Shown: positions 5,296 to 23,966 of the stretch, one piece after another
Numbering within the stretch: the stretch's first letter is position 1
Layout: every line of letters begins with the position of its first letter
Virus record (IMG/VR): IMGVR_UViG_3300031746_002328
Coordinates: 1 to 26,263 of that record
From: a virus
Strand: one strand, 5' to 3'
Length of the DNA: 26,263 nucleotides
Program-made: the position numbers and the translations under genes
Notes under the pieces: model-generated
Seen by the model: the letters and a program-made list of their open reading frames with translations, nothing else
Told to the model about the DNA's origin: nothing
Database searches by the model: none

Positions 5296-5741
5296 TCATG
5301 CTCCCACGGAAATACCACCCACTGATTCTTCCCCGCTTTAAGCAAATATTCCACGTGCATCTTTTTTGTTTTCTCTCTATCCTTAGATAACATAGTTACG
5401 CTTTGAACATTTTTAAACTTTAAACCATCCAAAAATCTTAAACTAAACTCTAATGTTTTTCCAGAGTCAAATATATCATCTACAAGTAAAATTCTTCCTT
5501 TAGGGTTATCCATAGGAAGCAAACAAGTTTCCATCTCAACTCTTCCACACTTTCTTCCCTTATAGCTTTTTAGATATAGCCAATATATCGGAACGTCCAA
5601 AGACAAACCAGCAACTATAGCGGGTATTCCACCACCATTCATTATACCTACAACAAAATCAACCTTCCCAAAGTAATTAGCCAAAATAAGGCTTCTAAAT
5701 GAATCTAACAGCTTCCAAGGAATAGCTACATCCTTCTTCAT
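5292..5741 (-). CDS. Purine-type phosphoribosyltransferase
   Basis: A 149-residue protein from ATG 5741, whose ATGA overlaps the QueE stop. A GAGGGG stretch lies just upstream. Residues near 95-110 are the PRPP-binding loop RILLVDDIFDSGKTL, and VVGIMNGGGIPA earlier fits the PPi loop of type I phosphoribosyltransferases such as xanthine/hypoxanthine enzymes. The usual reaction joins a free base to PRPP to give a nucleotide. Its place between queE and the rest of the preQ0 genes raises the possibility that it handles guanine or a 7-deazaguanine base, but nothing in the sequence fixes the base. It could equally be a general salvage enzyme. Confidence 0.8.
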   Translation of the reverse strand: MKKDVAIPWKLLDSFRSLILANYFGKVDFVVGIMNGGGIPAIVAGLSLDVPIYWLYLKSYKGRKCGRVEMETCLLPMDNPKGRILLVDDIFDSGKTLEFSLRFLDGLKFKNVQSVTMLSKDREKTKKMHVEYLLKAGKNQWVVFPWEHE

Positions 5742-6394
5742 ACACCCCTCTTCTTTGGTCCCCATACTTCTACATGCTGTCGACCGGAAAAAATCAAACC
5801 ATGCTGAATACATTGATTCCATACACGCTGTCTTATTAGCTTATTCTCTTTTTCATTTTTTGTCGTTAAAGGCATAAGCATTGTCGCGAATCTTAGCATA
5901 TCCATACCAAGCATTTTTCCATCTGTGACAATCTTTATATCATATCTTTTAGAGTCTGTTCTCTCAAACAACTTTGCCACTCTTCTTCCTACTTCATAGA
6001 CTTTAGGCGATATCGCGATGTAAGCAAAGTCCCAATATAATTCATACCAATCATTGTACGTCTTAATCAAATCACCATTCGTTTCTAAATCTATTTGGTA
6101 TACACCCTCCGACGCTAAACAGTCAGTGAAATCAAAAAGTGCTTCTTTACTTAAAAGAGGCTCACCACCAGTCAATACTACCCTATAATCCTTTAGGTCT
6201 TTTCCACACTTTTTTATTTCTGCCAATATATCTTCAGGGCTAAGCTTAGCTATCGGTTGACGATGAAAAGAACTATCACAATAGGAACAATGTCTCGTGC
6301 ACCCAGATACCCTCACAAAAACCGCAGGGTGTCCAGTATAACGTCCTTCCCCTTGCAATCCCATAAATATTTCAGATATCGGAATAAGTTTCAT
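5738..6394 (-). CDS. queE: 7-carboxy-7-deazaguanine synthase (QueE)
   Basis: A 218-residue radical SAM enzyme of the preQ0 pathway that converts 6-carboxy-tetrahydropterin to 7-carboxy-7-deazaguanine. FMGLQGEGRYTGHPAVFVR at the N-terminus is the QueE signature. The cluster cysteines are C32, C36 and C39 (CTRHCSYC), GGEP lies at 76-79 and the ribose-binding strand is DLETNGD near 103. The C-terminus ends with FSGRQHVEVWGPKK, as expected for QueE. It follows queD by one base and overlaps the phosphoribosyltransferase start, so the three are one unit. All key residues are present, so it should be active, unlike the QueE-like protein at 1482-2117. Confidence 0.93.
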   Translation of the reverse strand: MKLIPISEIFMGLQGEGRYTGHPAVFVRVSGCTRHCSYCDSSFHRQPIAKLSPEDILAEIKKCGKDLKDYRVVLTGGEPLLSKEALFDFTDCLASEGVYQIDLETNGDLIKTYNDWYELYWDFAYIAISPKVYEVGRRVAKLFERTDSKRYDIKIVTDGKMLGMDMLRFATMLMPLTTKNEKENKLIRQRVWNQCIQHGLIFSGRQHVEVWGPKKRGV

Positions 6395-6395
6395 A

Positions 6396-6797
6396 TTACA
6401 AATCTTTTTTAGTCAAAGCTATTTCTTCAGCATATGCATTCTCTGTTTCCCAAATCCTTACACGTATTTCAGTTATCGTATCATTTATGCTATAAAGCTT
6501 TTTCATAAGCATATCTTTCATTAAGCTAACAAGATTTTCTGCTGTCGGAATTGTGGGCATAATATTATTCAATGTCTCATGGTCAAAAGTATCAATAACG
6601 TTCTTTATCTCATTAAAGTTTACAACCATACCTGTATCTTCATCAGTAAGTCCATCAACCCATACCTGAACCAAAAAGTTGTGGCCATGAATCGCATGAT
6701 TGCATTTACCAAAAGTATTCTTATTCCATTCGGCATCCTTCGACTTATTCTCTAAAATATGGCCTGCCGCTATTGTTCTCTTCAAATATACCTTCAT
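6396..6797 (-). CDS. queD: 6-carboxy-5,6,7,8-tetrahydropterin synthase (QueD)
   Basis: A 133-residue member of the 6-pyruvoyl-tetrahydropterin synthase family. Zinc ligands are H13 (AAGH), H37 and H39 (HGHNF). The catalytic Cys is C32 in FGKCNH. FDHETLN near 71-77 holds the conserved histidine, and the glutamate in WETENAYAEE near 117 binds the pterin. It turns dihydroneopterin triphosphate, the product of FolE (16365-16943), into the substrate of QueE. Placed directly before queE with a strong AGGAGG site 7 bases from the ATG. The FGKCNHAIHGHN arrangement is closer to QueD than to the animal enzyme. Confidence 0.92.
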   Translation of the reverse strand: MKVYLKRTIAAGHILENKSKDAEWNKNTFGKCNHAIHGHNFLVQVWVDGLTDEDTGMVVNFNEIKNVIDTFDHETLNNIMPTIPTAENLVSLMKDMLMKKLYSINDTITEIRVRIWETENAYAEEIALTKKDL

Positions 6798-6808
6798 CCT
6801 TCTACCTC

Positions 6809-7120
6809 CTATTCTACCTTTATTCCACCAAAGATGCCACCAAGAAAATCGAATAATCCTGGTCTTCTCTTTCTTCTTAAACTATGCCCATGCTTATAAC
6901 CAAGCTGTTGAAGCATCCACACATAAATCTCCAACCTGTCGCCCATCGTCTTTCCCAAATCTTTAATACCTAATCTGTCGCAGTTAATCGCAGCCGAGGC
7001 TAAAAATCTTACATTCGTATACATCTCTTGTCTATCTGGCACTTCCTTCTGAGCGAAATATGCTTCATAAAAACTATTAAGAAACGAATCAGCCTTAGCC
7101 TGCTCTTCAAAATAGGTCAT
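6809..7120 (-). CDS. Small helical protein between queC and queD
   Basis: A 103-residue protein, mostly predicted helix by eye, with a basic RRKRRPG stretch near the end followed by a short Gly/Phe-rich hydrophobic tail (LFDFLGGIFGGI). No family recognised. Two adjacent ATGs (7123 and 7120) are possible. The AGGAGG site is 5 bases from 7120 and 2 from 7123, so 7120 is preferred. The position within the preQ0 block may be functional or incidental. Confidence 0.6.
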   Translation of the reverse strand: MTYFEEQAKADSFLNSFYEAYFAQKEVPDRQEMYTNVRFLASAAINCDRLGIKDLGKTMGDRLEIYVWMLQQLGYKHGHSLRRKRRPGLFDFLGGIFGGIKVE

Positions 7121-7169
7121 CATCTCCTCCTATTTTCACTAAACAAATCTTCTGCCAATCTTCTTTTCT

Positions 7170-7949
7170 TCATAAAAATCTTTTATCACCTTGATAGTAA
7201 TCTCTAAGCACACTTATAGTTCCAATACGTCTTTTCTTAGCGTACTTTCCAGCTAAACATCTTCTATAATAACTAAGAGCAAGTTTTCTATCGTAAAAGT
7301 CTATAGCTATTCCATTTGCTCTTAGAGCTATAAATCTTCTAAAACAACTAGGGCACTTATTACAACACCCTCTTTCTTTAAAACTGTAACAAGACACTGT
7401 CTCTTTTAACTGTTCAATACTTCCACCAGCATCTATGTACCATTTTACTAGTTCAATCTTGTCTAAATTCCAAAATGGTGAAAATACTCTAATCTTATAT
7501 CTACTAATGCCCGACAATACATCAGATACTTCATTAAAAAACTCAGGATTTTTATCCTCAACTTCGTCACCACTTATTCCCGCAATAAGTACATTATGAG
7601 CATACTTAATACTTGCTACAGAAGCGAGTAACAAATTTCTCTGTGGAATAAAAGCATTACTACCTTTCTCACATTCCCCCAACCACGCCAATCTGTCATC
7701 TATCTTATCAACGCCATTAAGCTTATACTGTATTGTAGTAACCTCTTTACGAGTATACTTCGTACATAAATTAAAATACACACTCAAATATTCAGCTTTT
7801 AATCTTTTTAAATAGAATTCGGCTATAAAACTATCAACACCAGAACTTTTGCATAAAACCACAGAACCCTGTATTCCAAGCCGTTTTAAGGTAGGCGGTA
7901 TAGGGCTAGCGCTTGATTTGGCCAAAGATTTACACCTCGGTAATGCCAT
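7170..7949 (-). CDS. queC: 7-cyano-7-deazaguanine synthase (QueC), variant P-loop
   Basis: A 259-residue ATP-dependent enzyme that converts 7-carboxy-7-deazaguanine to preQ0. The PP-loop near residues 30-40 reads VVLCKSSGVDS where most QueC have FSGGxDS. AFIPQRNLLLASVAS (near 99) and the GDEVEDKNPEFF region (near 128) are typical of QueC substrate and nucleotide contacts. A C-terminal zinc site is formed by SCYSF...GCCNKCPSC. The Gly-to-Ser change in the loop is unusual and might alter activity, but all other landmarks are kept. The start shares one base with the radical SAM gene stop (TAATG), pointing to coupled translation. Confidence 0.88.
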   Translation of the reverse strand: MALPRCKSLAKSSASPIPPTLKRLGIQGSVVLCKSSGVDSFIAEFYLKRLKAEYLSVYFNLCTKYTRKEVTTIQYKLNGVDKIDDRLAWLGECEKGSNAFIPQRNLLLASVASIKYAHNVLIAGISGDEVEDKNPEFFNEVSDVLSGISRYKIRVFSPFWNLDKIELVKWYIDAGGSIEQLKETVSCYSFKERGCCNKCPSCFRRFIALRANGIAIDFYDRKLALSYYRRCLAGKYAKKRRIGTISVLRDYYQGDKRFL

Positions 7950-12207: not shown

Positions 12208-12236
12208 ATATAAACAATTAGCTAGCGTTATCACTC
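12208..12236 (-). promoter_or_regulatory. Bipartite upstream element, copy b
   Basis: The coding strand reads GAGT-GATAACG, 10 bases, GTTTATAT, then GAT and AGGAGG. It has the same 10-base spacing as the other copies. It overlaps the last codons and stop of the polymerase gene and precedes the UvsY-like/SSB/RecA genes, so it may start a recombination sub-operon. Confidence 0.6.
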
Positions 12237-14669
12237 AACCTCTTTAAGTTCGCTCCAACTCTTTCCAACCTTAACATCAAATATAAAAGGCACTTTAAGC
12301 CAATCATTATTCTTTTGAACCTGCTGTGCGCTCTCTTTAATCAAAGCCAATACCTCCTGTATCTTATCATCACGGCATTCCAACATAAATTCGTCATGCA
12401 CTGTTAGCAAAAATCGACAATAACTACTATCTATTTTTTCCCAAATTACGCGCATAGCCTGTAAATTCAAGTCAGATGCCGCTGACTGAACGGGCGTATT
12501 TAACGCTTGCCTTATTTTATGTCCAAGCTCCTGCTCACCTGAAAATCCAGGAAGGAACTCCTCATCTTTTAGATACCTTATCCTACCCATAACCGTACGA
12601 ACTTCATTCATGCCATGTCGCATTTTAGTTTCAACTTCTAAGTGCCATTCTCTTATTCCAGGATACTTCTCAAAGAACGTTTGTCTAAACTGCTGTGCTT
12701 GCTCATTAGTCAAAATAATATCATACTCATTTTTTGCGTATGCTTTATAGCCTTGCCAAGACATGCCATATATCAAACCAAAGTTAATCGACTTTGCAGT
12801 CTGTCTTTGTTCTTTCGTTATCTGCTCCAAAGGCACTCCGGAAACTAAACTTGCAGTTAATCTATGCAAGTCAGTGCCTCTATTATAAGCATCAATCATT
12901 ACCTGCTCTGGAGCGATAGAAGCAACTACCCTTAACTCAATTTGGGACAAGTCTGCTTCTATCAATGAATAGCCATCTTCAGCGACAAATATAGACTTAA
13001 TAATACTTCCTCTTGGAATATTTTGCAAGTTTGGGTCAAATGAAGACAACCTCCCTGTCGCAGTTCCAATTAAGGAAAAGTTACCCCTAAGCCTGCCATC
13101 CGAACTTAAACGCTTTGTCAAACCTTCTACGTATGTTCCTAAAAGCTTGGAAGCTCCTCTCAGCTTCAAAAGTCTCTCACAAATAAATATTATATTTTCT
13201 CTACTTGGCAATTTCTCATTACTGTCACATCTCTCTAAACAAGCCTTCAAAGCACCTTCATCAGTACTTATCTTACCTCCAGGAGTCTTCTTAACATCTT
13301 CTGTGTCAAGCAATCCCGCAAATATTTCTTGAAGCTGTTTCGTACTATTCCAATTCCTTTCACCAAACTTATCTGTTAACTCTTCGGTCAGTATCGATAT
13401 CTGCTTAGTTAACCTCTTTCTAATTACATCTAATCCTGCTACATTTATCTTAACGCCATAACGTTCCATATCACCAATGATAGGTATTGCTGGTGCAGTT
13501 ACTTTCTTTGCAACATTAGCCAAGCCATTTTTAGACATCATTTCTTTCTGCTCAAAGTAAAGCTTCCAAGTATTGATTAAGTCTTCTGCATTATAAGCAC
13601 AAAGCTTTTTAAAGTCTTGCTCTGTTGCCGGATTCAAAACTAAGTTTGCCCATCTAAAGCCAAACTCAACTGCAACACTTTTTAACTTATATCCAGCCCG
13701 TCCTTTTCCTTGCGTAATCAAATAAGCATTTATCATCGTATCATCATAGTGTATTCTTGAGTCACAAAGCCCGTTACTATTCAACATCTTATACTCAAAT
13801 GTCGCATTATGTGGTACGTAAGTTATATCTTTTACCGATAGGCATTTCTTTACTACCTCAATATTTTCCATAAACTTGCCTATAATCGGTACAACAAATG
13901 CGCCATCATTGGTGCAAAAGCCGACGAGAGTTATCTGGTCTGTTACTTCTAGTCCAGTAGTCTCTATATCAACAACTACTATCTTTAATTTTAATACGCT
14001 AGCATAAAGGGCATTTCTTGTTTCTATACTGTCAACCAAAGTGTATTTCGGCTCGTAGTCATCAATGAATACGGACTTAAAGAAACGAAAGTCCATTACA
14101 TACTCATCTGCTGCGTTAGGATTTCTTAAAATAGATGCTGGGTGATGCGTTACAGCCACACGCTTTTCCCCATGCCAAACAACATTCCCTCTTGCAAAAG
14201 AATTCGTTTCACCTAAAACCGCCTCTTCCGCGGTCTTTCCAACAACAATAATATGCTTAAAGCGTTCTATATCTCTAGCTAAATAAAGCTTGGAACATAC
14301 GCCAATTTCTTTTCCCTCAGGTGTTCGATTATCACCACGCTCATTCGACGGTCGACAATTACATACATTCGTAAACTGTACATCCTTATCAACTGATATG
14401 CCAACTCTATCCAAACAAGAACGAAGTAGCTGTCCGCTTTTTCCAACAAATCGTTTACCTTGGGCTTCTTCTTCCTTTCCAGGAGCCTCTCCAACAATGA
14501 GAATACTTGCAGCTGTCTTAGGCGGGTCTATAACCTTTGTCTTTCCATTAAGAGGGCAATTTTCACAAGACACTCTAGCGGACTTGCCTTTCTTCTTTTC
14601 ATCAGTTACCTCAGCCACAGAACCGCCAAGGATAGACTGCATTGTCATTTTTATATTTTGCTTCTTCAT
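12231..14669 (-). CDS. Family A DNA polymerase with N-terminal uracil-DNA glycosylase domain
   Basis: A replicative-type polymerase of about 812 residues. Residues 35-215 are a family 4-like uracil-DNA glycosylase: CENCPL and NVCNCRP supply four iron-sulfur cysteines, GEAPGKEEEAQGKRFVGKSG is the active-site loop and HHPAS is motif 2. Residues 230-400 are a 3'-5' exonuclease with DIETTGL, HNATFEYKML and YNAED. The polymerase domain has TGRLSSFDPNLQNIP, motif A EADLSQIELRV, motif B RQTAKSINFGLIYG and motif C LTVHDEFMLE. There is no 5'-3' exonuclease. Phe in motif B is as in E. coli Pol I. ATG 14669 shares a base with the dpdA stop (TGATG), and AGGA lies 7 bases upstream. Confidence 0.92.
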   Translation of the reverse strand: MKKQNIKMTMQSILGGSVAEVTDEKKKGKSARVSCENCPLNGKTKVIDPPKTAASILIVGEAPGKEEEAQGKRFVGKSGQLLRSCLDRVGISVDKDVQFTNVCNCRPSNERGDNRTPEGKEIGVCSKLYLARDIERFKHIIVVGKTAEEAVLGETNSFARGNVVWHGEKRVAVTHHPASILRNPNAADEYVMDFRFFKSVFIDDYEPKYTLVDSIETRNALYASVLKLKIVVVDIETTGLEVTDQITLVGFCTNDGAFVVPIIGKFMENIEVVKKCLSVKDITYVPHNATFEYKMLNSNGLCDSRIHYDDTMINAYLITQGKGRAGYKLKSVAVEFGFRWANLVLNPATEQDFKKLCAYNAEDLINTWKLYFEQKEMMSKNGLANVAKKVTAPAIPIIGDMERYGVKINVAGLDVIRKRLTKQISILTEELTDKFGERNWNSTKQLQEIFAGLLDTEDVKKTPGGKISTDEGALKACLERCDSNEKLPSRENIIFICERLLKLRGASKLLGTYVEGLTKRLSSDGRLRGNFSLIGTATGRLSSFDPNLQNIPRGSIIKSIFVAEDGYSLIEADLSQIELRVVASIAPEQVMIDAYNRGTDLHRLTASLVSGVPLEQITKEQRQTAKSINFGLIYGMSWQGYKAYAKNEYDIILTNEQAQQFRQTFFEKYPGIREWHLEVETKMRHGMNEVRTVMGRIRYLKDEEFLPGFSGEQELGHKIRQALNTPVQSAASDLNLQAMRVIWEKIDSSYCRFLLTVHDEFMLECRDDKIQEVLALIKESAQQVQKNNDWLKVPFIFDVKVGKSWSELKEVE

Positions 14670-15733
14670 CAAAGAATCCTACAGCTATCGATAGCTTCAA
14701 TTGCTGATACTCTTCCCATCAAACCCCTACGGTCTATCTCTTTACACAACCCCTCCACTCCAAGTTCCTTCCAAGTATCATAAACAAACTTGGCGCCACT
14801 ACTAACTACCAAACTATCATACTCTTCTCCTTTCTCTCTAACAACTCTCTGAACATTCTTTTTCCAAGCATTTACAGCATTCTCCATATTTGTTCTCATC
14901 ACATGATATAATCTTTCACCGCCAAGCTTAGCCGGTATATCAACAAGCTTCTCGCCATTCCAAAGAAAAAAAGGCCTGCCTTCACGAACATCCTTGAAAG
15001 ATAAGCCATCCCCATTCTCATCTATAAGCATACCAAACCGATGCGCCGATGAACTAGATGCATCAAAAGATAACATCTCAGTTTCTATTCCTAACTTCTC
15101 AACGAGATAATGCATCCCAACAGCGACTTTTCTTGATGTTGCTCCTAAACAATGGATTATCTTCTGCTTCTGCTTAAATGCCCCTAACTCATAAAGAGCT
15201 ATCAATTGCAAAGCGAAACCATACACAGAAGTCTTTAAAGCAGAACCAAATGCCCAACCAATACTAGGGAATTTTTTTACTCCGCTATACCAATAACGAA
15301 TTATCTCAGGCTCTCTACCATGTATAACATTAACGTAACGACCCTCTGCACCTAAATCAAATTGGAGCTGCATATTATTCAATGATAACTCTAACGTATT
15401 TTTAATAAACTTAATATCCTTAGTTATACCAATCGGGATATCCCCACCAATGATATAGTCACCATACTCACACTGCCAACGATAATACTTTTCTCTCAGA
15501 CTAAGAAACTCACCTCGTCTATGTAGGTTAGCCCGACCGCGAAACTGGAAGCCCGCGGAATCTACCATTATCTTACCTTTTTTCTCAAAGAGAGTATGCG
15601 GATACCAAAATCCTGCGCTGCAAAGTATCGCATCAAAATTCCATAAAAATTCAGGGATTACTACCTTCCCATCTTTTTCGTCAAAATCTATATTCATTAC
15701 TACAGTTATAAATGTCGGTAAAGGTACATTCAT
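14669..15733 (-). CDS. dpdA: DpdA-type DNA 7-deazaguanine transglycosylase
   Basis: A 354-residue protein of the tRNA-guanine transglycosylase superfamily. Active-site features follow the family order: DSAGFQ at 58-63 (general base Asp58), GGDIPIG with D98, NVIHGRE near 138, GWAFGS at 159-164, LGATS at 196-200 and SFDASSSS with D224 as the likely nucleophile. DpdA exchanges guanine in DNA for preQ0. The zinc site of bacterial tRNA enzymes (CxCxxC and His) is not seen. Location next to the polymerase and FolE, with QueC, QueD and QueE in the same window, supports a DNA rather than tRNA target. A structured leader precedes it, and AGAAGG lies 8 bases before the ATG. Confidence 0.85.
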   Translation of the reverse strand: MNVPLPTFITVVMNIDFDEKDGKVVIPEFLWNFDAILCSAGFWYPHTLFEKKGKIMVDSAGFQFRGRANLHRRGEFLSLREKYYRWQCEYGDYIIGGDIPIGITKDIKFIKNTLELSLNNMQLQFDLGAEGRYVNVIHGREPEIIRYWYSGVKKFPSIGWAFGSALKTSVYGFALQLIALYELGAFKQKQKIIHCLGATSRKVAVGMHYLVEKLGIETEMLSFDASSSSAHRFGMLIDENGDGLSFKDVREGRPFFLWNGEKLVDIPAKLGGERLYHVMRTNMENAVNAWKKNVQRVVREKGEEYDSLVVSSGAKFVYDTWKELGVEGLCKEIDRRGLMGRVSAIEAIDSCRIL

Positions 15734-15855: not shown

Positions 15856-16368
15856 CTATTTAGGGATTATACCTAACTCAGGGAAAGCCTTAGCAAGTAC
15901 CTTTTTCGCATTCTGCCGCATGTCCTCACGCCGTTTTTCCAGGTCGTCAGGATTTCTGGAACGCACCTTAGTCATTACAATCTCTTCTACAACAGCCATA
16001 AAGGGCGTTACTGTCTTTGCTCCTGCAGCATACCTACCAATAAGTATTGCTTTCCATTTCTTAGTGTAGGCCATCTTCATTACAGCTTTCTTAAGTGTCT
16101 CTTCCTCGAGGACTTGTTCAGGCTGTCCTTTTACTCCCTGTTCCTCAACTATTCCAGGCTGTTCATTCTTCTGTTCATCCATAGTGGCTCCCTCCTTTAC
16201 AATACTACCTTTCGGAATAACTCTATCCTTATGATGCAAACCACACGTCCACGTTCTTCTAACCTCTTCAGTATACAAATGCAAATGGTTCGTCGTTATA
16301 CTAAACCACTTACCGCAAGTAATGCACTTTAAGCGTATCTGATTTCTAACGGCGCTACCAAGTCTCAT
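15856..16368 (-). CDS. Unknown protein with N-terminal zinc ribbon and internal start
   Basis: A 170-residue protein. The N-terminus has CITCGKWF and TWTCGLHH, a probable zinc finger, and the last 90 residues are a basic helical region. The first ATG overlaps the FolE stop (ATGA) but has only a weak ribosome site. An in-frame ATG at 16182 (residue 63) has a perfect AGGAGG 8 bases upstream and would give a 108-residue product without the zinc ribbon. Both forms may be made. No family recognised. Its location between folE and dpdA is suggestive of a link to DNA modification, but nothing in the sequence shows it. Confidence 0.6.
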   Translation of the reverse strand: MRLGSAVRNQIRLKCITCGKWFSITTNHLHLYTEEVRRTWTCGLHHKDRVIPKGSIVKEGATMDEQKNEQPGIVEEQGVKGQPEQVLEEETLKKAVMKMAYTKKWKAILIGRYAAGAKTVTPFMAVVEEIVMTKVRSRNPDDLEKRREDMRQNAKKVLAKAFPELGIIPK

Positions 16369-16943
16369 ACTCTAGTTCGTGCTTCCAAAAGAAACTCACT
16401 TCTAGTCTTCTCATCTTTACGAAAGCACCCCAATACTTCTGTTGTTGTCATAATAGCATCTCTCTGCATAGCACCACGCATAGTCTGGCAATAGTGTACC
16501 CCTTCAACGTATATACCAACACCTTTAGGCTTTAACACCGCCATCATTATCCTTGCCAAATCACGTGTATAGTCTTCCTGGATTAGTGGTCGCTTAGCCA
16601 TTGTCACAGCAACGCGTGCCAGCTTCGATAAGCCAAGCACTTTATCAGTAGGAATATAAGCTAATGTCACATCTAGAATTATCGGTAGCAAGTGATGTCC
16701 GCATACAGAATATGCACGAATTCCTCTGCTAATTACCATGCCATCATACTGACTAGGAAACGTCTTTGATAAGTACGTCTTTACTTGTTCCTCTATCTCT
16801 TCTTTAGGCAAGCATATCTCATCGTACATTCTAGCTATCCGACTAGGCGTATCTACAAAATTAGGGTCATGCAAATCCAATTCAAGTGCGTCAATTAAAG
16901 CAATTGCCGCTTTTTCTAATTTCTCTTTATTAAACTTTCGCAT
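16365..16943 (-). CDS. folE: GTP cyclohydrolase I (FolE)
   Basis: A 192-residue enzyme that opens GTP to dihydroneopterin triphosphate, the first step toward preQ0. Zinc ligands C81 and H84 (SVCGHHLLPI) and C152 (HYCQTMRG) are present, with the GLSKLARV and QEDYTRDLA motifs between them. The length is normal for the bacterial enzyme. It is preceded by a copy of the bipartite element and an AGGAGG site, so it heads the unit that includes the zinc-ribbon gene, dpdA and the polymerase. Carrying its own FolE lets the phage supply the pathway independently of the host. Confidence 0.93.
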   Translation of the reverse strand: MRKFNKEKLEKAAIALIDALELDLHDPNFVDTPSRIARMYDEICLPKEEIEEQVKTYLSKTFPSQYDGMVISRGIRAYSVCGHHLLPIILDVTLAYIPTDKVLGLSKLARVAVTMAKRPLIQEDYTRDLARIMMAVLKPKGVGIYVEGVHYCQTMRGAMQRDAIMTTTEVLGCFRKDEKTRSEFLLEARTRV

Positions 16944-19615: not shown

Positions 19616-19801
19616 CTAATCCTTCGTTCGTAACTTTACCCTTCCTACACCGCCAATAAAGTTCTTACTCCTTCTAAGCGACCGAGTATACCTACTTGTC
19701 GCCTTATACTTAGCAGCAAACTTAAACGAAGCGCATCCATAAGCCCTCAATATATCATCAGTCTTGCACTTCTTAGAACAAATGGTACAGCGTTCAATCA
19801 T
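19616..19801 (-). CDS. Small basic protein with CxxC motifs
   Basis: A 61-residue protein from ATG 19801, which overlaps the preceding stop (ATGA). CTICSKKC at residues 5-12 and one more cysteine near 23 suggest zinc binding. The C-terminal half is strongly basic (YTRSLRRSKNFIGG...VKLRTKD), so it may bind nucleic acid. An upstream extension is open in the same frame but would lie deep inside the neighbouring gene. Family unknown. Confidence 0.55.
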   Translation of the reverse strand: MIERCTICSKKCKTDDILRAYGCASFKFAAKYKATSRYTRSLRRSKNFIGGVGRVKLRTKD

Positions 19802-20238
19802 TGCTGGCCTATCTTCTCTTTCTGTACGCAAGATATTCCATACCCATAGTATACAGCACACTTAGTCCCATCACTAAGGGTCAGTTCTTCTACTTTCCCG
19901 CCTAAGCCAGAATGCAAATCGTGTGATAGCACACTAGCACGACTATCTTCAACATTTGAAGCACTCCAAATACTGCCTTTTCTCTCTCCATACTTCCTAA
20001 CTTTCTTAATATTATTCACTAATATAACTGTAAGAATACCAATTATCACTAGTACCACTATCAATTCCATTAACGTAAAAGCTTTCTTCATATCTTTCTC
20101 CTTCTTTAATAAACTTGGGTCTTCATAAATCGACTGCTCATTATTCTTCGGGCAACCACAAGAATCCAGATTGTCCGGTTTGCATATACCTCGCTTATTG
20201 AACTTACAAATCTCTAAATCGCAATAATAACCATTCAT
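19798..20238 (-). CDS. Type IV prepilin-like signal protein, with Cys-rich N-terminal extension
   Basis: The open frame from ATG 20238 encodes 146 residues. Residues 50-72 read as a class III (prepilin) signal: MKKA, then FTLMELIVVLVIIGILTVIL, with Glu at +5 and Ala instead of the usual Gly at -1. AAGGAG lies 7 bases before the internal ATG 20091, while ATG 20238 has no ribosome site. The pilin-like protein of 97 residues is therefore the likely main product. Its C-terminus has SDGTKCAVYYGYGISC, a short domain with two cysteines. The 49-residue leader (CDLEICKFNKRGICKP...CGCP) resembles small DUF1540-like Cys-rich proteins and could be a fused or separate gene remnant. The prepilin signal is clear. 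Its role in a phage is unknown. Confidence 0.65.
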   Translation of the reverse strand: MNGYYCDLEICKFNKRGICKPDNLDSCGCPKNNEQSIYEDPSLLKKEKDMKKAFTLMELIVVLVIIGILTVILVNNIKKVRKYGERKGSIWSASNVEDSRASVLSHDLHSGLGGKVEELTLSDGTKCAVYYGYGISCVQKEKIGQQ

Positions 20239-20256
20239 AAAGACTTAATAAAAAGA

Positions 20257-20431
20257 GGTTAGCTGGTGGTGGCTCGGTTGCTTGCACCCTACTTTCGGTC
20301 CAGAGGCGGCTACCACGTTCGTAGCTTCGGGCGTTCCTCCGCGCTTACGACCTTACTGTTTCTTGGGCAACCTCGGGTAATCCCTGCTTGGCCATTCGCA
20401 TCATTAGTTTAATACCTCACCAGCTAACCAA
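20257..20431 (-). ncRNA. Structured RNA candidate closed by a 12-bp stem, with U-run
   Basis: The 204-base gap between the HNH and prepilin-like genes holds a perfect inverted repeat, GGTTAGCTGGTG at 20257-20268 and CACCAGCTAACC at 20420-20431. On the minus strand it closes a 175-nt RNA and is followed by TCTTTTTATT, like a terminator. Inside, GGUUGC pairs with GCAACC, and UCGUAAGC pairs with GCUACGA (one bulge) around a GCG/CGC hairpin. A C-GAAA-G tetraloop is also visible. The stretch looks much more GC-rich than its surroundings. I recognise no group I intron core, RNase P, tmRNA or 6S consensus. Adjacency to an HNH gene suggests comparison with HEARO/omega-type RNAs. Confidence 0.6.
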
Positions 20432-20442
20432 ATTGTCAATTA

Positions 20443-20913
20443 CTACCAGCTAATTCTGTTTCTTCTACTGTTCCTTTTATTTCTATTTTGCTCAGAACGG
20501 GAGGCCCATTTACAATTTGACGGCTCGTAATTGCCATCATTGTCTATTCTTTCAATCGTAAACTTCGGTGGGCATTCCCCCATGTCTTCAACAAAATAAT
20601 CAAAAGACTTTTCCCACCTCTCACAAACACTTATTCCTCTAGCCCCATAATTCTTATAAGCTTGGTCAGTAGGCAAATTACACCTATTTTTCATAGCTTG
20701 CCAAACCCAATATAGCCTATTCTTAGCCCTATTGTCCATAAAATTATGAGGTACTTGGCCTTTCTTAAAGGCAGTTTTAGGAACTAATCCTGTCCTTAGC
20801 CCTTTATTCCAAGGAATTCGACCCTTCTTAAAAGCAGTTGTAGGCACAACCCCTTTTTTGAAGTGACTGCTGTTAAATGCTGTCTTACCTCTAACGTAAA
20901 TACCTCTAGGCAT
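20443..20913 (-). CDS. HNH-type endonuclease with repeated N-terminal modules
   Basis: A 156-residue protein. The N-terminus repeats a short module (TAF or HF, then KKGxxPxx) three to four times, as in NUMOD-type DNA-binding segments of homing endonucleases. Residues about 68-150 match a common phage HNH-like domain: YWVWQAMKNRC, YKNYGARGISVCERW, and ERIDNDGNYEPSNCKWA. There is no ribosome site before ATG 20913, and the upstream bases are AT-rich, unlike neighbouring genes, consistent with a recently inserted gene. The stop lies within ATTAGCTGGTAG, which resembles the first arm of the adjacent RNA. Confidence 0.8.
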   Translation of the reverse strand: MPRGIYVRGKTAFNSSHFKKGVVPTTAFKKGRIPWNKGLRTGLVPKTAFKKGQVPHNFMDNRAKNRLYWVWQAMKNRCNLPTDQAYKNYGARGISVCERWEKSFDYFVEDMGECPPKFTIERIDNDGNYEPSNCKWASRSEQNRNKRNSRRNRISW

Positions 20914-23779: not shown

Positions 23780-23813
23780 ACTATCTTCAACCTCCTTTAA
23801 AAACACCGATGTA

Positions 23814-23947
23814 AAGGACTGACAACAAAGCAAATTATGTTTTAGCATAATAGGGCATCGACAACATAACAACAAAATAAGTTTTTGTTATTGCCCTGCC
23901 AACAATCCAACCACAACCATACAACAAGATAATCATTGTCAGTCCTT
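23814..23947. repeat. Nested inverted repeats with a G-rich tract
   Basis: AAGGACTGACAA (23814-23825) and TTGTCAGTCCTT (23936-23947) form a perfect 12-bp inverted repeat around 110 bases. Inside are a 6-bp hairpin (ATTATG/CATAAT), an AGGGCA/TGCCCT stem and an ATAACA/TGTTAT stem. The minus strand also has four GG pairs (from 23918 down to 23899: GGTTGTGGTTGGATTGTTGG) that could fold into a two-layer G-quadruplex. Candidates are a replication origin or a regulatory RNA. Part of the region may also encode a small protein. Confidence 0.45.
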
Positions 23948-23966
23948 CGTCACCGCTTACGCCCAT
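23835..23966 (-). CDS. Possible small membrane protein (43 residues)
   Basis: The frame starts at ATG 23966, overlapping the preceding stop (TAATG), and ends at TAA 23835. It encodes a hydrophobic core (LTMIILLYGCGWIVG and YFVVMLSM) typical of a small membrane protein. There is no ribosome site, so translation would depend on coupling. The same bases form the nested inverted repeats, so the frame may be accidental. Confidence 0.35.
   Translation of the reverse strand: MGVSGDEGLTMIILLYGCGWIVGRAITKTYFVVMLSMPYYAKT

Follow-up and report, generated by a model that had tools for sequence, protein, structure and literature searches.

A candidate stem-closed intercistronic RNA element next to an HNH endonuclease gene of an uncultured phage

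Introduction

Is the GC-rich stretch between an HNH endonuclease gene and a prepilin-like ORF of an uncultured phage an RNA element, possibly one that serves the adjacent nuclease, or is it a spacer in which two short sequences are complementary by chance? Phage intercistronic RNAs are poorly catalogued. If the stretch is transcribed into a functional RNA, this ncRNA would belong to no known family, and the phage encoding it bears a 7-deazaguanine gene set as well. The original prediction, made from the nucleotide sequence by eye, described a stable structured RNA and suggested a comparison with HEARO/omega guide RNAs. Herein, the locus is examined with regard to its closing stem, base composition, fold, homologues, and neighboring genes.

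Gene context of the element

The window analyzed is a 26,263-base IMG/VR virus record, and all genes called in it are located on the minus strand, forming an operon that runs leftward. The candidate element lies in a 204-nt gap (20239–20442)—one of two gaps of more than 200 nt in the window—with the HNH gene on one side and the prepilin-like ORF on the other (Table 1). It is positioned 3′ of the HNH gene, the stop codon of which lies 13 nt before the start of the element; the HNH gene itself starts 5 nt past a Band_7 gene. The distance from the end of the element to ATG 20238 of the prepilin-like ORF amounts to 18 nt. This ATG has no Shine–Dalgarno sequence, and AAGGAG precedes an internal ATG at 20091. 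The ORF encodes a prepilin N-methylation signal, with a Cys-rich segment of ~50 aa ahead of it in the same frame. The element occurs as a single copy within the record.

Table 1. Features of the element and its flanking genes (window coordinates).
Feature	Position	Strand	Remarks
HNH endonuclease gene	20443..20913	-	PHROG 374/3377/8790, E 1e-36 to 1e-38
Candidate structured element	20257..20429	- favored	173 nt; stretch of highest GC, A-rich minus sense, operon strand, U-run on minus only
Closing stem, 5′ arm (minus reading GGTTAGCTGGTG)	20418..20429	-	perfect 12-bp inverted repeat
Possible 19-aa ORF MMRMAKQGLPEVAQETVRS	20345..20404	-	start region: GAGGT 9 nt upstream of ATG (20404)
Closing stem, 3′ arm (minus reading CACCAGCTAACC)	20257..20268	-	perfect 12-bp inverted repeat
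U-rich stretch TCTTTTTATT	20247..20256	-	immediately 3′ of the stem on minus; from sequence
Prepilin-type ORF, downstream of element	19798..20238	-	PF07963 E 1e-6; TIGR02532

Closing stem and base composition

The two arms of the closing stem are separated by 149 nt. When the gap was subjected to dinucleotide shuffling, a perfect 12-bp repeat arose in 16 of 20,000 shuffles, which renders a chance origin of the stem unlikely. For the eight larger gaps taken together, shuffles gave an expectation of 0.004 such 12-bp repeats, and two were seen. Under a first-order Markov model for the full 26-kb window, 0.18 perfect repeats of at least 12 bp with a loop of at most 200 nt are expected, and no simulation out of 60 yielded such a repeat with at least 7 GC. 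Real viral DNA (1.74 Mb) contains 0.77 such repeats per 26 kb with loops of 60 to 200 nt. Hence, the stem alone is not rare, and its placement within a gap is the significant part. The stem had been predicted to be followed by a U-run; this holds for the minus strand only, and the plus strand has AAATTGTC there. An intrinsic terminator was considered and rejected, since a 149-nt loop is not of the normal short-loop type and a terminator scan made no call.

With a GC content of 55.5%, the element is the 173-nt stretch of highest GC in the window (mean 39.4%), confirming the predicted enrichment over its surroundings. The borders of this maximum coincide exactly with those of the stem. In minus sense, the composition is A51 C43 G53 U26, meaning that G and C are about equal and that A is in excess of U. 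No sigma70-like site was found on the plus strand near the element. A minus-strand transcript is moderately favored by the side of the U-run, the direction of the operon, the A-rich and U-poor sense, and this lack of a plus-strand sigma70-like site.

In AT-rich genomes, structured RNAs sit in gaps that are longer than average and raised in GC (PMC8632094), and by length and GC content, the element qualifies as a candidate RNA in the sense of that work. It shares with the candidates of this GC-IGR pipeline the long GC-enriched intergenic region, the AT-rich genome, and the closing helix. Those candidates were, however, analyzed by comparison of homologues, and none was found for the element.

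Fold inside the stem

Over its full length, the element reaches an MFE z score of −3.2 on the plus strand and of −1.9 to −2.4 on the minus strand. Among 164 ordinary windows per strand, three on plus and two on minus have a z score at least as good, and none has a lower energy than the element. Upon deletion of the 12-bp closing stem, the z scores rise to −0.5 (plus) and +0.5 (minus)—i.e., to the level of shuffled sequence—so that the several internal helices of the original prediction find no support. The best control, a locus from a Verrucomicrobia bin (L211) where a chance 13-bp repeat is located inside a coding ORF, gives z scores of −2.9 and −3.2, which equal those of the full-length element. 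The plus strand folds slightly more stably than the minus strand (−61.5 versus −59.1 kcal/mol), with pair probabilities of 0.9 for two inner helices. A nested minus-strand fold drawn by hand was discarded, as it is less stable (−52.3 kcal/mol) than the MFE structure. The proposed GAAA tetraloop is not formed in the predicted folds either: in the minus-strand MFE structure, GAAA is part of a loop of 8 nt that ACC/GGU closes, and the plus strand reads UUUC. Of the stable 175-nt structured RNA initially described, support remains for the stem that closes it, for its raised GC content, and for its base composition, whereas the internal fold is no better than chance.

Searches for families and homologues

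Rfam returned no match to the element at gathering score. With relaxed filters, the sole match reached 9 bits to a vertebrate lncRNA block, the gathering score of which is 55. Neither ARAGORN nor Rfam detected a tRNA or tmRNA in the element. Group I and group II introns were rejected, as Rfam gave no match and the flanking genes appear complete. Its description as an unrecognized element, outside known intron and tRNA-like families, therefore holds. The peptides from the seven stop-to-stop frames tested have no protein-family (Pfam) match.

Two sequences of the same phage lineage, one 99.8% identical over 17.5 kb (L035) and the other about 95.7% identical over 8.7 kb (L036), end at window positions 19714 and 18433, respectively, short of the element. 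A blastn search against phage and plasmid records gave no match, exact-pattern scans of viral contigs with three pieces of the element gave seed-only chance matches, and a two-anchor pattern scan of genome contigs gave no match. Covariance models built from the single sequence showed no match above noise, be it for both strands against the HNH loci or for the minus strand over related records. Used as bait, the prepilin ORF found no relatives, and Band_7 found one relative of 61% (L034), in which the element is absent. Scanning two collections for 10- to 11-bp portions of the arms at similar spacing yielded three loci (L209, L210, and L211), a number close to chance expectation; none is alike inside. 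The repeat in L211 sits within a 78-aa ORF, and L209 and L210, which resemble coding DNA, have nothing but the arms in common with the window.

An intercistronic RNA element as the preferred reading

Our preferred reading, which we put forward tentatively, is that of an intercistronic structured-RNA element of the leftward operon, read in minus sense and with a possible role in processing or as a boundary. The element would be cotranscribed with the HNH gene, and the 12-bp stem would close the 149-nt insert. The closed stem and the U-run behind it may then act in cis and, by way of processing, stability, or partial termination, set a boundary between the HNH mRNA and the prepilin-like message; a stem-closed small RNA could possibly be released. 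This reading builds on the improbability of the stem in its gap according to the shuffles, on the GC maximum lying in one of only two gaps longer than 200 nt, on the minus-sense A/U of 51/26 at about equal G and C together with the minus-only U-run and the missing plus-strand sigma70-like site, and on the seven frames without a protein-family match. It also builds on the second gap, 23781–23965, which likewise contains a 12-bp stem, so that two were found where 0.004 were expected. It is opposed by the inner fold with z about 0 on both strands and the slightly better fold of the plus strand, by the equal z of L211 and the rate of such repeats in viral DNA, by the lack of any homologue in the searches, and by a loop unlike that of a normal intrinsic terminator. 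The element is thus an orphan candidate, which probably serves for processing or insulation or as a leader.

RNase III–type intercistronic processing stems occur in phage mRNAs. The element resembles them in that its stem measures approximately one helical turn and lies between cistrons of the same operon. They have a short loop, whereas the element, a candidate for processing, holds an insert of 149 nt.

Alternative readings

The main rival is a chance repeat in a GC-rich spacer that has no fold and is otherwise functionless or horizontally acquired. It would explain the inner z of about 0, and both the equally good z of chance repeats in coding DNA and the frequency of such repeats in real viral DNA speak for it. 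We nevertheless regard it as unlikely, given the shuffling result for the gap of the element, the occurrence in two gaps, the exact match between the GC maximum and the stem borders, and the strong A skew on one strand.

Less probable still is an element at the DNA level, meaning a MITE-like short inverted-repeat insert or a replication or recombination site by the HNH gene. Perfect terminal repeats and a GC content unlike the surroundings point in this direction, as does TTAGCTGGT, which occurs a third time at the HNH stop codon. The element is, however, single-copy in the record, a target-site duplication is not obvious, and the arms recur at about chance frequency. On the basis of this arm scan, in which one of the three loci lies in a coding ORF and no interior is similar, a mobile element with terminal inverted repeats was rejected.

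Two further readings are improbable to a similar degree. The first, a small antisense RNA transcribed from the plus strand against the operon, gains from the slightly more stable and better defined plus-strand fold; its sense would be U-rich and A-poor, the U-run lies on the opposite strand, and no sigma70-like site was found on plus. The second takes the stretch not as a noncoding RNA but as a small coding region or as a 5′ leader belonging to the ORF downstream, to which the GAGGT and ATG of the 19-aa ORF as well as the proximity to ATG 20238, itself without a Shine–Dalgarno sequence, would fit. The 19-aa ORF is too short to be judged and has no family match, and the better start at 20091 with its AAGGAG puts the element far upstream.

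A wider proposal, to which we assign a low probability, is a new class of stem-closed small RNAs that one phage lineage would encode in several of its operon gaps and that would act in trans during infection, with 20257–20429 and 23808–23950 as perhaps two of its members.

The HNH neighbor and the comparison with HEARO/omega RNAs

The HNH protein comprises 156 aa and matches the phage HNH families phrog_374/3377 and the endonuclease PHROG 8790. It has no match in Pfam, NCBIfam, or PDB, and no RuvC family was detected in it; the phage HNH and endonuclease PHROGs are its only matches. It is an ordinary free-standing phage type. Many of its relatives extend with a C-terminal segment beyond the end of this protein. 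Their downstream flanks contain no inverted repeat of comparable length: repeats of 9 to 10 bp were found downstream in two types of HNH loci, at about or below chance expectation, and none of the 20 loci scanned contains an Rfam RNA.

HEARO/IscB proteins combine RuvC with HNH, and their RNA is the 5′ UTR (PMC9755519). The likeness to this system consists of a structured-looking region adjoining an HNH gene. In contrast to IscB, the HNH protein described here is too short for RuvC plus HNH, the element is on the 3′ side of the gene, and neither an Rfam match nor a co-occurrence with the HNH family exists. The HEARO/omega covariance model RF02033 does not match the element at gathering or at relaxed E value. 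The size of the HNH protein, the 3′ position, and the relatives lacking the element disfavor a HEARO/omega relation, and the suggested comparison finds no support. A guide RNA of the adjacent nuclease, for which adjacency is the one argument, is thus highly improbable. There is no link of the element to RNA-guided nucleases; as one unreplicated sequence with the closing stem as its sole firm feature, it is a lead and not evidence of a new RNA-guided system.

The second gap element and other features of the phage

The second gap element (23808–23950, minus strand) is closed by a perfect 12-bp stem, AAGGACTGACAA/TTGTCAGTCCTT, with the repeat at 23814–23947, and has an extra inner 10-bp hairpin. 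Its gap has z scores of −4.0 to −5.5 on both strands. The element belongs to no Rfam family and folds better than the one at 20257–20429.

Genes resembling QueE, QueD, QueC, and FolE are located at 5738–7949, 14669–15733, and 16365–16943 of the window. The same gene set includes a 354-aa protein that appears TGT/DpdA-like by eye and has no PHROG or NCBIfam match. Judged by these sequences, the set suggests a 7-deazaguanine modification of the phage DNA. One 813-aa ORF (12231–14672) encodes a family A DNA polymerase that carries, at its N terminus, a domain similar to uracil-DNA glycosylase. At the end of the contig (26192–26260), a 6-base repeat, CGACCC/CACGAC, is arranged in tandem, and the sister contig contains a different, G/S/Y/D-rich repeat ORF at L212 6613–6843.
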